This document shows, one piece after another, positions 35,409 to 62,920 of a stretch of DNA of 64,000 bases (within the stretch, counting starts at the first letter, position 1; every line of letters begins with the position of its first letter). The notes beneath the pieces were generated by a model. It had not been told where the DNA came from, did not search any database, and saw nothing but the letters and a program-made list of their open reading frames with translations. The position numbers were made by a program, and so were the translations under genes. Source of the DNA: Larkinella soli (GTDB lineage: Bacteria; Bacteroidota; Bacteroidia; Cytophagales; Spirosomataceae); the NCBI RefSeq assembly GCF_003703975.1, contig NZ_QTJY01000008.1, positions 248,001 through 312,000 of the forward strand. Direction: 5' to 3'.

Positions 35409-35496
35409 GCTGAAAACGCTTCAGACCCTATGTAAAAATTTTACAGAGCCTATGTAAAAAATTTATATAGGCTCTGTAAAATTTTTACTTAGGCTC
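35409..35496. repeat. 22-bp iteron-like tandem repeats, cut by an IS element
   Basis: TGTAA cores start at 35431, 35453, 35475 and (inside the IS end) 35497, exactly 22 bases apart. Each unit reads TGTAAAAATTTTACA-like followed by GGCTC/GCCTA; a more diverged unit precedes them at 35409. The core is itself palindromic, so the block also folds into a long hairpin. A 22-bp period is that of plasmid replication iterons. The right end is the left tip of IS copy 1. Confidence 0.8.
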
Positions 35497-36360
35497 TGTA
35501 AGCTTCCCAGTAATTGTAGCCTTACCCACATTAGGACAGCAAGTGTTTAGACTTCTGTGGTTTTCACTTGCCTGGCATAGGTTGCTGGAGCCAGACCACC
35601 CAGCGACTGATGAGGATGAATCGGATCGCCGAAGCGAACGATTGTACTGATCAACCCACTCATCCGACAAGATCCGGACTTGTTCCAATGACTCGAATAG
35701 ATAAGCATCCAACACGTCCTCTCGAAACGTGCGATTCAACCGCTCAATGTAACCGTTCTGCATCGGTTTTCCCGGCTGAATGTATTGAATCCTAATATGG
35801 TTCCCTTCACACCATTCTTTGAATTTATCTGCAATAAACTCCGGGCCGTTATCTACTCGGATTCGCTTTGGCAGGGGACGTTCCAAGGCAATCATTTCCA
35901 AAACATCAATCACTTTCAGAGCTGATAACGAGAAATCAGCGTGAGCGGCTAGGACCTCGCGACTACAGTCATCTATAATCGTCAATACCCGGATTTTTCG
36001 TTTACTTACCAGTGCATCAGAAACAAAGTCCATGCTCCAACATTGATTAATTTCTTGGGGAACCTTCAATGGTTGTTTCACCCGTGCCGGTAGTCTCCGT
36101 TTATGCCGCCTTCGATGTTTTAAGTTCAGCAAACGATACACCCGTAGCACCCGCTTGCGATTCCACGTTAGCCCTTCATTTCGAATCTTGCCATAGTAAT
36201 CATCAAAACCGCGCGTGGGATATAGTTCAGCATATCTCCGAAGTTTATCAATGACCGGCTGATCGTTCTTTTTACTCTGATAGTACCAGTGGGAACGATG
36301 CATTCCCACCACTCGACAAGCCCTGCCTACAGACACCTTTTCGTCCACGGCCCACTCCAC
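35485..36360 (-). pseudogene. IS3 transposase OrfB, C-terminus frameshifted
   Basis: The DDE integrase of IS copy 1. The catalytic regions are intact: Asp in WSMDFVSDALV, Asp in RVDNGPEF, Glu in YIERLNRTFRED. After DQYNRS (near 35640) the frame changes, and the family ending HPHQSLGGLAPATYARQ lies in another frame, stopping at 35547. A 16-base length difference from copy 2 at this point explains the shift. The read-out tail therefore runs through the IS end. Probably not functional. OrfB would normally be made by a -1 slip on the A7 run at 36391-36397. Confidence 0.85.
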
Positions 36361-45385: not shown

Positions 45386-46039
45386 TTAACATTCGGTGGC
45401 CAGCGTATCGGCCTGTTCGCGGAGCGAATCATTGCTCAGCGGTTCATGGCTCATCACCGCCTGCCGGACCAGACCGGCGCGTTGCAGGGCTTCCTGGGCT
45501 TTTTTAAAATACATCCCGGCCCGTTTCGGCCGGTTGGCCTCGGCAACATGGTCGCCCAGGTGATTCATCAGCAAAACGCTTTCTTCCACCACCCGAAGGG
45601 CCGTAAACCGCGTATCTTCTACTTTCTGGGTCATGGCCACCAGCAGCGAATCGGCCGGATAGGCGTGCCCGGTATGACAACGGAACCGCGCCAGGCGGCC
45701 ATCCTTCAACCGCGTCAGCACCCCGTGGCATTCCGGACAGGTAAAGGGAGTCCGTTCACCTTTGACCTGCACCGACGCCTCCACCACCAGCAGGTGATGA
45801 TCCGGGGAGCCACGTAAATCCGGGCCCGATACCAGGGGTTGCCCATCGTGGGCATGAGCGACCGGAAGGGGGGTGAGACGGCTCCGCACCTGCGGCAACA
45901 CGCCCCGCACGGTGGGGGCCATATGCCAGACGATAAAAACAGAAGCCTCCAGGTCGGAGGGCAGGGCCGCCACGATTTTTTTGATGGCTTCAAAACCGCC
46001 CGCTGAGGCACCGATGACAATCATATCTCGTTTTGCCAT
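45386..46039 (-). CDS. CheB-like protein with its catalytic core deleted
   Basis: 217 residues against 340-350 in intact CheB-type proteins. The N-terminus is normal (MIVIGASAGGFEAIKKIV, Ser12; VWHMAP with its His; DHHLLVV), then after VQVKGER the sequence jumps straight to the C-terminal zinc-knuckle-like part (FTCPECHGVLTRL, then RFRCHTGHAYPADSLLVAMT). The middle segment that holds the LTG-x-G-x-DG catalytic Asp is missing in frame. It opens the operon, 34 bases ahead of the kinase. It may serve as a docking or decoy protein rather than an esterase. Confidence 0.85.
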   Translation of the reverse strand: MAKRDMIVIGASAGGFEAIKKIVAALPSDLEASVFIVWHMAPTVRGVLPQVRSRLTPLPVAHAHDGQPLVSGPDLRGSPDHHLLVVEASVQVKGERTPFTCPECHGVLTRLKDGRLARFRCHTGHAYPADSLLVAMTQKVEDTRFTALRVVEESVLLMNHLGDHVAEANRPKRAGMYFKKAQEALQRAGLVRQAVMSHEPLSNDSLREQADTLATEC

Positions 46040-46372
46040 TCCGATCCTGGTTCAGAAGGTCAACCAATTCAAAACCTAAATGGCCATTCAAATCCGAATA
46101 AAACCTTTAGGCTTTCAACCATGATGAGTTGAAACAAGGGAAATCTAAGTAAAAAAGCAATGGAAGGGGAAGAGATACAAGGAAATCGCTCGTTCTCTTA
46201 CCAAGACATCCTGTTCATAAAAGCGTTCTAGAGGACAGGGTGTTCACAGATCTCGCTGGTTTTAAAGCTGTCGGCCTTGGGTTTAACCGTCCTCTCGACG
46301 TAGCCTTTGCCCTGCCCCTTGCCTACGCTGATCCAAGCGGTGGGCCGCCGTACCAAGTTGAGTGTCCTACTA
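46040..46372. other. Gene-free stretch upstream of the CheB-like gene
   Basis: No gene recognised. The 5' region of the chemotaxis-like operon lies here on the minus strand; no box matching TAnnTTTG was seen. Confidence 0.4.
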
Positions 46373-46489
46373 CTACTTATCGGATGATCTAGCCCAGGTA
46401 GGCCCGGGGATGCGTTCCCGCTCGTAGGGCGCCAGAGTGGCAAAAAGGTACGGCTTTGTTCTTGCGGAGGAAGAGGCCTTCTTTGTCAT
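46373..46489 (-). CDS. Small hypothetical protein
   Basis: A 38-residue frame starting MTKKASSSARTKPYLFATLA. It begins nine bases after the stop codon of another small frame, the spacing of an operon, but no family is recognised. It could be the remains of a longer gene. Confidence 0.25.
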   Translation of the reverse strand: MTKKASSSARTKPYLFATLAPYERERIPGPTWARSSDK

Positions 46490-46498
46490 TAGGTAACG

Positions 46499-46624
46499 TT
46501 AGTTCAGGTAGATCATACAAACAGGGTCGTACACCCACTCGCCCGGAATGCGCGGGCGGAGCTCGGCCGCATCAGCCCGACGCATAAGCAGTTGGGAATC
46601 CTGGCGGGGGCGACAAAGCTCCAT
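46499..46624 (-). CDS. Small hypothetical protein
   Basis: A 41-residue frame starting MELCRPRQDSQLLMRRADAA and ending EWVYDPVCMIYLN. Amino-acid use looks protein-like, but no homology is recognised. Confidence 0.25.
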   Translation of the reverse strand: MELCRPRQDSQLLMRRADAAELRPRIPGEWVYDPVCMIYLN

Positions 46625-46937
46625 CGGGGAAAGGTCGTTCTTATGGATAGGCCCGTTTCATGGGGCAAGGTTTATCCCTTGAAAGGGAGGGAGAATACAC
46701 GAATTGAACAGGTCTTAAAGGGTCGTTTAAGCCTTGTAAAATAGTCTTTTCGCCCTGCTTCTCCCTTTCTGAAGCCTGAAATTTTGCTCACGGGAGATGT
46801 CCTTTGAATCATCCCTGGCCCAGCCTTCGGGAAAGTCATTCAAAACATGTACCTTTCCTCGCCCCTTTTTACACCTGTCCTGATCATTCACCCCTCATTC
46901 TCTCTATAGAGCGAATGACCCTTCCGATGTTGACCCG
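46625..46937. other. Gap before the zinc-ribbon gene
   Basis: No gene seen. A CTTGTAAAA motif occurs at 46732-46740, the same core as the downstream 31-bp repeats. Confidence 0.4.
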
Positions 46938-47582
46938 GTGACTACTTGTCAAACCTGTGAGCAGCCCCTGCTGGACGGCCGCTCCGACAAACGCTTTTGT
47001 TCTTCCCGCTGCCGCATGCAGCACCACCGCCGGCAGAAAGCCGTGTTGACCTCCCCCGGCAAACACCTGCGCCGATCGCTGACCCTGAACAAGCCGATTC
47101 TCTTTCAACCTACGGAGGAAGAGGAGCTGGAGGTGACGCCCACCTGCATCTGGGTGCCCCGACCGCTGTACGACCAGGACCTAAAGCTGCTGAACACCGT
47201 GCTGTGGCTACGCGACGATCTGGTGTACCTGGAGAACCTCGATGGCCAGGAAGGCGAAACCAACCCCGGGGTGGAATGGGAGAAGTGGGATGGCAACGAT
47301 GTCAGTGACCACTTTACGGCCCAGTGGGTGGGTCTTGAAGGCTATTTCAACACCCTCAAGCGGGCCCAGGGGCCCATGGGCCGCGAGTTGGCCAGGCACT
47401 GGCCACGGCTGGAGGCCGCCTACCGACTCATCCAGCAACAAATGCGGAAGTTCGTCGCGACCTACCAGATGAAGTCCGGGCGTTATGTGGCTCACCTGGA
47501 GGCCGGCTTCTTAGACCAGGTGGAGGTGTTTCGCCAGGATCTGGGTCTGTTGTGGTATGAACTGGAGGAAGCCACCCGGTAG
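46938..47582 (+). CDS. Zinc-ribbon protein of unknown function
   Basis: A 214-residue protein. Residues about 4-33 form a four-Cys zinc ribbon, CQTCEQPL then KRFCSSRCRMQHHRRQK, like the small FCS-type ribbons of DNA-binding and plasmid-borne proteins. The rest is helical and acidic, with a conserved-looking WEKWDGNDVSDHF and a long C-terminal helix (residues about 140-210). The start codon is GTG. It is immediately followed by the GTCAC and TTGTAA repeat arrays, so it could be the protein that binds them. That link is inference. Family not recognised. Confidence 0.65.
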   Translation: MTTCQTCEQPLLDGRSDKRFCSSRCRMQHHRRQKAVLTSPGKHLRRSLTLNKPILFQPTEEEELEVTPTCIWVPRPLYDQDLKLLNTVLWLRDDLVYLENLDGQEGETNPGVEWEKWDGNDVSDHFTAQWVGLEGYFNTLKRAQGPMGRELARHWPRLEAAYRLIQQQMRKFVATYQMKSGRYVAHLEAGFLDQVEVFRQDLGLLWYELEEATR

Positions 47583-47584
47583 CC

Positions 47585-47748
47585 GTCACCCAGGCGTCAC
47601 CGACCTATCACTGAAACCAGATACGTCACTCGCCCTGAGCCCTGATTCGTCACGAAAGGAAGCGAGCCGTCACTAAGCCGTTACCGGGAGGGAGGGAGCA
47701 GTTTCCGATGTAGCCCCACCCGTCACCGAGCTGTCACCAAAGCGTCAC
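47585..47748. repeat. GTCAC repeat array
   Basis: Eight GTCAC cores (47585, 47596, 47625, 47649, 47669, 47722, 47733, 47744) and two near-matches (ATCAC at 47607, GTTAC at 47680). The most frequent step is 11 bases, one helix turn. It begins three bases after the stop codon of the zinc-ribbon gene. Confidence 0.75.
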
Positions 47749-47807
47749 GAAAAGACGCCCTTTGGTCTTTCGTCGTCGAGGGCGGCCACCAGGACAGTTT
47801 TTACAAG

Positions 47808-47931
47808 CTTGTAACCGGTTGTAAAAACGCCGTTTTAGCTTGTAAACCCTTGTAAAAGGGGCTCATCGTCTTGTAAAAGCTTGTAAAAAGGGCACGAAAG
47901 AGGGGTAAGCGGTTGTAAAAACTAGGCTAAT
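47808..47931. repeat. Four tandem 31-bp units with paired TTGTAA cores
   Basis: Units start at 47808, 47839, 47870 and 47901. Each has two (C/G)TTGTAA(A/C) cores 10 bases apart (11 in the last); in the fourth the first core is decayed. Core starts fall at 0, 10, 31, 41, 62, 72 and 104 bases, multiples of about 10.4, so all face one side of the helix. Left of it, TTACAAGCTTGTAA forms a perfect palindrome (47801-47814). The rest of 47932-48298 shows nothing else. Confidence 0.85.
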
Positions 47932-48298
47932 CGCTGGTAGTAAGCTTTTTCCTAGCGTAGGAAACCCCGACAGCTGCCCTAAATCGGCCTTCAGAAGGTA
48001 AATATCCCTGTTTGGGAGGCATCAGAAGACACTGTTAAAGGGTTATTGTACCTTTCCACCCACTACGGTAAAGCTATAGCCGACTATTGAGAGATTTAGA
48101 ATGCTAGGTTCGTGGCGGATCAAGCCTTTTTTAGGACGAAACTAGGGTAGGGGACGCTAGGGAGACACTGCCTTCTATGGCGGTGTTCATCGGCGTTGAA
48201 TTTTTTAGTGACTCCCTGAGCGGAGCAACCAGGTATTAAGAAAATATAAGCTTTTCTTAAATCGAATAGGCGACTCCCATAACGACGTAAAGTGTCCC

Positions 48299-48426
48299 AA
48301 AAAAGGAGCTTTTCCCGAGACGAATTAATAAAGATGCCTGGCCACTTATTAACGGAATCGTTTCAGTTTTCTACATTCGCTTTATCGATTCGACTATTCC
48401 TTTCTTAATCGGTTATGAAAACACTA
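48299..48426. repeat. Dispersed 128-bp repeat, copy A (upstream region plus gene start)
   Basis: Matches 61265-61392 in reverse complement at about 80-85%. It covers the upstream region and the first four codons (MKTL) of the 48415 gene. Shared blocks include GAGACGAATTA, GGCCACTTATTA, AATCGTTTCAGTTTTCT and CATTCGCTTTAT. Probably the shared promoter region of a former gene pair. Confidence 0.85.
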
Positions 48427-48876
48427 TCTGCTTTTCTATTTATTTGGATGATAAGCGTCCAGCTTTGCTTGGCTCAAGCGACAAAACCGGCTTTAGATAC
48501 GGACTCTACCTTTCGCCGGGCGCTTCAGGAGATTCGCTACCCTGAACTTAGACGGCTAGCCCAGCAAACGACCATCGTTTTTGTTCAGTTTACCCTTACT
48601 CCGCAAGGGAAAGTCACCCAGATCAAGTATTTGAATGAGGATGAGGTGGATAACCCTTTTGTCTATGAGGTTCAACAGATCGTCGAGCAACTACCTACCT
48701 TACCAGCTTTGTATGCTGGCGAGTATGTATTGCCCGTCGGGTTTGAATCGGAAAACAGCCAGGGCAAGAAACGACTCACCAAAGAAGACCGGGCGGCCCT
48801 GGCCCGCACCTTCGTTCAATTAACCCGCGCCCGCGTGTTGCTCAGCGAAGTCTATGTGCCGGCTTCGAATTGGTAA
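48415..48876 (+). CDS. Exported TonB-C-like protein
   Basis: A 153-residue protein with a clear signal peptide (MKTLSAFLFIWMISVQLCLAQ, cut near residue 21). The mature part has the order of a TonB C-terminal domain: IRYPELRRLAQQTTIVFVQF, LTPQGKVTQIKYL, VYEVQQIVEQLPTLPA. It lacks a membrane anchor, so it is more likely a periplasmic protein of the same fold than an energy transducer. Its upstream region is duplicated at 61265-61392, where the rest of the paralogous gene is gone. Confidence 0.75.
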   Translation: MKTLSAFLFIWMISVQLCLAQATKPALDTDSTFRRALQEIRYPELRRLAQQTTIVFVQFTLTPQGKVTQIKYLNEDEVDNPFVYEVQQIVEQLPTLPALYAGEYVLPVGFESENSQGKKRLTKEDRAALARTFVQLTRARVLLSEVYVPASNW

Positions 48877-61264: not shown

Positions 61265-61392
61265 GAGCGTTTTCATAGCCTTACCAGAAAGGGATAGTCG
61301 GATTAATAAAGCGAATGGAGAAAACTGAAACGATTTCGGTAATAAGTGGCCAAGCATCTTTATAATTCGTCTCAGAAAAAGTTCCATTTTTG
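61265..61392. repeat. Dispersed 128-bp repeat, copy B (upstream region plus gene start)
   Basis: Inverted relative to copy A (48299-48426). On the minus strand it ends with ATGAAAACGCTC at 61276, matching the first codons of the 48415 gene, but the frame stops after about 15 codons. It marks a paralogous gene of which only the front remains. The rest of 61186-61604 shows nothing else. Confidence 0.85.
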
Positions 61393-61604
61393 AGAATAAG
61401 TGGTTCGACTTCCACTGATCCGGGGACCGGCATCATCGGCTGTTGACTGATGGGAATCAGGCTTCTTGCTCCGCGCTCTGATTAGAGCTGCACTAGCCAG
61501 TCTAAAAATCAACATCCACAGCGGCGAAGGGGAAGCTGGCCAGAGCCTCTCCTCTTGCCTTGCCCGCAGTCGCAGACAACTGCCTCCGGCTTTCCTGCTT
61601 TTAT

Positions 61605-62837: not shown

Positions 62838-62920
62838 GTTACAACTCCCCTTCAAAAAGTTACAACCCCGTTGTAACGAGGTTGTAACCTGGTTGTAACG
62901 GGTCACAACCTCGTTGTAAC
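62838..62920. repeat. Phased GTTGTAAC array
   Basis: Octamers GTTGTAAC or its complement GTTACAAC begin at 62838, 62859, 62870, 62881, 62892, 62902 (GTCACAAC) and 62913. Steps are 21, 11, 11, 11, 10 and 11 bases, so every site faces the same side of the helix. There is no coding frame in 62628-63306 apart from this array. Confidence 0.85.

Follow-up and report, generated by a model that had tools for sequence, protein, structure and literature searches.

Organization of the locus

The DNA analyzed here, a stretch of 64,000 nucleotides that we call the window, comes from contig 7 in a bacterial genome of 6.92 Mb and 82 contigs. It contains a gene for a 214-amino-acid protein, followed by an array of GTCAC/GTTAC sites, an array of TTGTAA cores and a noncoding segment (Table 1). 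The order gene, GTCAC array, TTGTAA array is the one that an earlier, sequence-only reading of this DNA had described. An Rfam scan of positions 46000-48500 gave no match to an RNA family, and promoter and terminator predictions yielded counts near the shuffle level. A terminator-like hairpin can be drawn near 48107, within the noncoding segment, and matches of this kind were equally frequent in shuffled sequence.

Table 1. Features of the arrays and their surroundings in the window.
Feature	Position	Strand	Remarks
Single TTGTAAAA 5′ of the zinc-finger gene	46734..46741	+	possible operator, noted post hoc
Gene for 214-aa protein with N-terminal CxxC...CxxxC zinc finger	46938..47582	+	candidate binder
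GTCAC/GTTAC array, nine GTNAC cores	47585..47748	+	R = 0.89 at 10.6 bp
Inverted TTGTAA core (eighth core)	47801..47806	-	gives TTACAAGCTTGTAA with the first + core
Phased array of seven TTGTAA cores	47809..47918	+	R = 0.986 at 10.4 bp
Degenerate core GGGTAA	47903..47908	+	10 bp 5′ of the seventh core; completes the unit 4 pair
Noncoding segment directly 3′ of the array	47921..48310	+	~81% identity to G000:C37:27-439
Degenerate core TGGTAG	47935..47940	+	in phase (+126); TTGTAA in the diverged C37 copy
Second array, GTTACAAC/GTTGTAAC cores and one GTCACAAC	62838..62920	both	

The TTGTAA cores lie on one face of the helix

The seven TTGTAA cores of the + strand start at 47809, 47819, 47840, 47850, 47871, 47881 and 47913 (offsets of 0, 10, 31, 41, 62, 72 and 104 from the first), each exactly where the sequence-only reading had placed it. 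That reading had also proposed a 10.4-base period that keeps the cores on one helix face and is unlikely to arise by chance, and both points are borne out by our analysis. Coherence at 10.4 bp is close to complete (R = 0.986), and in 20,000 random placements of seven non-overlapping cores, scanned over periods of 10 to 11 bp, such coherence was never reached. When both weak in-phase sites are added to the seven cores, R is 0.96 at 10.5 bp.

The density of the sites, too, is far above that of shuffled sequence. When the 180-bp array region was shuffled 2,000 times with dinucleotides kept, no shuffle had more than two + strand cores, and more than two per 110-bp stretch were never seen in 100 shuffles of the whole window. 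The longer word TTGTAAAA occurs nine times in the window vs. 1.19 times expected, with five occurrences at most in 100 shuffles. The base that follows the cores of the array is usually A or C. The DNA of the array matched none of 149 other genomes of the family.

The zinc-finger gene and the GTCAC array

A first alternative to the reading developed below takes the product of the adjacent zinc-finger gene as the binder of the arrays, controlling either itself or the segment 3′ of them, with gene and array as one module. We consider this unlikely. Gene, GTCAC array and TTGTAA array are directly consecutive, the GTCAC array beginning directly after the stop codon of the gene, and a single TTGTAAAA lies 5′ of it, all of which argues for a module. 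A second copy of the gene, truncated and frame-disturbed, is found at G000:C19:10643-10892. Over 70 codons, of which 45 specify identical residues, dN (~0.3) is below dS (~1.0), again in favour of a module. GTCAC/GTTAC sites likewise come directly after the C19 copy, the two copies appearing to differ there by a step of 11 bp, but no TTGTAA array is present. Of the two arrays, then, only the GTCAC array accompanies the gene in both copies.

The distribution of the protein also counts against a role at the TTGTAA sites. Its C-terminal 165 residues matched none of the 389 other genomes of the order (390 with its own), although TTGTAA arrays do occur in other genomes of the family. We found no full-length relative of the 214-aa protein in the genome_contigs, plasmids or viral_contigs collections, and among nine genomes of the genus it matched its own genome only. 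Matches at E ≤0.001 were obtained in 45 of 150 family genomes, its own included; the others cover only the N-terminal finger and lie in different proteins, in frames of ~100-200 aa (29 loci inspected). Moreover, the finger itself is weakly defined, with all Pfam matches of the protein below threshold (DUF2116, E 0.02) and a single-sequence structure prediction of low confidence (mean pLDDT 55). The zinc-finger protein, which the sequence-only reading had put forward for binding tests, is a possible binder of the GTCAC sites and a weakly supported one for TTGTAA. Two matches confined to the finger, one to a phage primase-polymerase (E 0.03) and the other to PHROG 8643 (E 7e-4), were too weak for use.

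The nine GTNAC cores (offsets 0, 11, 40, 64, 84, 95, 137, 148 and 159) are phased more loosely than the TTGTAA cores, 7 of 20,000 random placements reaching their R of 0.89. Three GTNAC cores spaced by exactly 11 bp occur at two places in the genome, both inside the window; among 41 family genomes the same pattern occurs at 12 places in 8 genomes, vs. 6 for the reversed control. Three GTNAC arrays of the family (L069, L075 and L076) have spacings of ~10-11 bp, with the words GTGTTACAGGG, GGTTACC and GACGTCACAAG, and the genes beside them look unrelated by eye.

Cores more alike than spacers

The TTGTAA array had been described as 31-bp tandem units with two cores each. This holds mainly for the spacing of the cores and less for the sequence between them. 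In units 1-3 all core bases are identical (12/12), whereas only 5-8 of 17 spacer bases are alike. With unit 4 included, the values are 10-12/12 for cores and 2-8/17 for spacers, a contrast that is partly built in because the cores were selected as identical words. Shifted by 31, the array matches itself at 43 of 62 bases overall, and at shifts of 10, 11, 20 and 21 the identity does not exceed 0.43 over the first four cores. Tandem Repeats Finder detected no 31-bp unit in the window. Cores that are more alike than their spacers are the pattern that selection on the sites would predict.

The opposite view is that the array is a functionless short tandem repeat, with a unit of ~10 or 31 bp, that expanded and then drifted. 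Such repeats exist: among 59 stretches of genome_contigs with the 31-bp layout, a search made with no control word and discounted here as evidence for the layout, 42 are 10-bp-type TTGTAA satellites. The GTCAC array has seemingly changed by one 11-bp step, and the identity at shift 31 given above points the same way. Those satellites, in contrast, have identities of at least 0.85, vs. the ≤0.43 of our array at shifts of 10, 11, 20 and 21; the cores have stayed alike while the spacers have not, and the alternation of 10 and 21 bp, closing with 32, preserves the phase. A decaying repeat seems to us improbable.

Least probable of the alternatives is that the array is intrinsically curved DNA, in which TTGT would be incidental. 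Curved DNA has A-tracts in helical phase, and so has the array, as judged from sequence ranks rather than a bending model: its phased A-tract power ranks 1-14, depending on the measure, among 63,877 stretches of 124 bp, and five of the seven + cores continue into AAAA or AAAAA. Curvature stays a serious rival, since by its A-tracts the array is the leading candidate for curved DNA in the window. The first core (TTGTAACC) is in phase, yet it has no A-tract; phased A-tracts are missing from the second TTGTAA array (rank 6,394 or lower); and the common core is longer than bending requires.

A second TTGTAA array in the window

The second array, likewise phased, carries TTGTAA on the + strand at 62871, 62882, 62893 and 62914 and on the - strand at 62839 and 62860, its GTTACAAC/GTTGTAAC cores recurring at ~11 and 21 bp. 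It adjoins a C-terminal fragment of a Kup-type potassium transporter, of which two near-full-length relatives are encoded elsewhere in the genome. Pairs of the form TTGTAA-N3-6-TTGTAA number 11 in the 6.9-Mb genome, vs. 4 for the reversed control, and 6 of the 11 lie in the window, 5 of them in its two arrays. Eight congeners have 4-17 such pairs per genome, so the genome total is ordinary while the clustering in the window is not. The copy of the 47921-48310 segment on C37 has TTGTAA at the in-phase position that reads TGGTAG in the window.

Dense TTGTAA arrays in the family often lie beside primase-type genes

A three-core TTGTAA pattern had matches in 56 of 222 family genomes. Their number (103 vs. 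64 for the reversed control, from summed rows; 78 vs. 43 once the outliers G014 and G076 are left out) is in modest excess over the control, and many of the sparse matches may therefore be due to chance. In G014, with 25 pattern matches, we observed a dispersed repeat, TTGTAATTGTTTGTAATTATAGTAATTT, in many contigs, and a similar one occurs in L155.

We fetched 30 loci automatically, the window included, and counted sites within 150 bp of the match. Nine of the 30 have at least 7 sites. A primase-type gene lies within ~240 bp at six of these nine, to be read with the origin of the markers in mind, as eight of the fetched loci supplied the marker genes and, of the six positives, five coincide with loci of that pool, two being marker sources and only L096 fully separate. 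No primase-type marker was found at any of the 21 fetched loci with 5 sites or fewer. The dense arrays at L112, L114 and the window have no primase-type marker nearby; a SocA/Panacea-type gene is present at L133, which coincides with L112. In a set of 20 loci judged by eye, which overlaps the 30, a marker gene accompanied 10 of the 11 loci with 5 or more sites and 1 of the 9 that have 4 or fewer. In this family, then, dense TTGTAA arrays often associate with primase-type genes of integrative elements.

Direct family scans of L086, L087, L123 and L126 identified DUF6371 with a zinc ribbon, BT4734-like plus PriCT-2, and DUF3987 proteins, that of L126 also matching PHROG DNA primases. The genes flanking these element arrays include HTH_17 proteins, and one group has a tyrosine integrase near mnmE; matches of the small flanking proteins to excisionase and NikA are below the curated cut-offs. 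A module recurs in eight loci (L121, L122, L124-L126, L134, L135 and L139), where a DUF6371-type gene is followed by a dense TTGTAA array. A small protein with a sub-threshold likeness to excisionases comes next in five of them, and the module ends in a protein whose match, NikA-like or DUF6290, is sub-threshold. In DUF6371 elements the array is found at the 3′ end of the primase-type gene, before the small DNA-binding-protein genes, and in the other group of elements before the HTH_17 or primase gene; either placement suits the control of replication or of expression.

Like the DUF6371- and BT4734/DUF3987-type element arrays, the window array is intergenic and dense (8 sites vs. 4-11 in 13 element arrays), is built on the same core and has a periodicity in the 10-bp range. 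The periodicity is weak in the elements, where 119 same-strand pairs at up to 110 bp, from the 13 arrays, weakly favour a period of 10.2-10.5 bp (mean cosine 0.48). The element arrays differ in that they mix strands and in that 11 bp is their commonest distance (21/119 pairs), followed by 9 bp (10 pairs), with 10 bp seen only twice, whereas in the window array 10 bp is the commonest spacing and 21 bp is also used. The window array resembles the element arrays in core and layout and differs from them in exact spacing. It also differs in its flanks: tblastn found neither the primase-type nor the small DNA-binding-protein genes of the elements beside it, and none of the element-array genes in the window, C37, the C19 stretch or the contig end.

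TTGTAA arrays in viral contigs

The 0/10/31/41 layout of TTGTAA, with 1-2 bp of play, was found in 27 viral stretches, vs. 19, 19 and 10 for three control words of the same composition, an excess that is small before filtering. After removal of coding and satellite cases, 14 of the 27 remained for TTGTAA, vs. 4/19, 2/19 and 1/10 for the controls. The 14 arrays form 6 independent groups, of which 4 adjoin replication genes. In L204, L207 and L208 these encode DUF5906/D5-type proteins, and in the L200 group they form an operon that includes VRR-NUC and primosomal proteins. A gene with a sub-threshold DUF6290/NikA-like match lies ~1.2 kb from the array in L202, and L217 has neither a replication gene nor a NikA-like gene. 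Around the four control-word groups we saw no primase among the neighbours, judged by eye. Small as these numbers are, the viral comparison points the same way as the family loci.

Comparison with known systems

Several architectures share traits with the window array. As at iteron origins, its sites are directly repeated and in helical register; the iterons of RK2, P1, F and R6K are alike in having several directly repeated sites, though the literature puts them at 17-22 bp or longer, vs. 6-8 bp for our core. One source (PMC4980987) describes Rep proteins that bind iterons cooperatively, with the location of the sites in space being important, and reports that half a turn inserted between iterons abolishes cooperative Rep binding. 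No initiator, Rep or primase gene adjoins the array, as judged by Pfam scans of 15 window proteins and tblastn with element proteins.

The parC/tubC centromeres bound by ParR, ParG-like and TubR proteins are, like the window array, arrays of short repeats. PMC5016525 describes the assembly of ParR on parC and, more generally, small proteins that bind repeats of this type, some of them assembling along the DNA and repressing their own operon. Among the 15 window proteins scanned there was no gene for a par motor or a centromere-binding protein. At one family locus (L137), three TTGTAA sites lie directly 5′ of a ParA-type ATPase gene.

A putative array of sites for a protein that assembles along the DNA

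Taken as a feature of the sequence, the TTGTAA array is best read as a phased array of putative protein-binding sites. The sequence-only reading had gone further and suggested a cooperative DNA-binding protein. The part of this suggestion that concerns the sites is supported by the phasing, by the core present in the C37 copy and by the dense arrays of the family, while binding by a protein, its cooperativity and the derivation of the array from an element of the type described above are what we infer from them. Since the host is bacterial, a binding test with nuclear extract, as that reading had proposed, is inapplicable.

We tentatively favour, at somewhat under an even chance, the view that the array is a set of phased sites on which the subunits of a protein would line up along one helix face. 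It may be what is left of a control region of an integrative mobile element, either orphaned or degraded, a reading to which we are led by the absence of element genes from the window. A protein that recognizes ~6-8 bp could bind at every one or two turns on one face, and adjacent subunits would touch, building a strip along the DNA, in an architecture of the iteron, centromere or multi-operator type. In an element, the resulting nucleoprotein strip would set replication or repress a flanking promoter, and the array in the window may still act on the noncoding segment 3′ of it.

A wider proposal, which we put forward as a long shot, is that TTGTAA is the common core of phased control or origin arrays in unrelated primase-bearing integrative elements and phages. 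The window would then hold a reduced form of such a region, in which a lineage-specific zinc-finger gene is accompanied by two phased arrays, first GTCAC and then TTGTAA. The kind of feature is already known; its TTGTAA version, like a link between this core and primase-bearing elements, is without description in the literature searched, which covered few subscription journals. Phased site arrays mark places where a protein may form a filament or a loop on DNA. If the association with primase-type genes holds, a 6-bp word combined with helical phasing would be a simple finder of element control regions, of use for the poorly described integrative elements of this family and for phages, and the initiator or repressor would be directly testable.

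Other repeats in and around the window

A number of further repeats were noted in the course of this analysis. A sequence of ~130 bp is present in three copies of ~85% identity, at 48295-48440, 61266-61395 and G000:C37:6526-6646; it lies 5′ of a small TonB_C-domain gene, and a similar gene is also found on C37. An array of 22-bp repeats (TGTAAAAATTTTACATAGGCTC) at 35413-35501 lies where an rve-type transposase gene ends; it may represent a transposon end and was set aside as a separate feature. Lastly, the start of C37 (L002 1-27) and the end of C7 (L082 end) are alike by eye over ~28 bp in opposite orientation, and are perhaps the ends of one insertion sequence.
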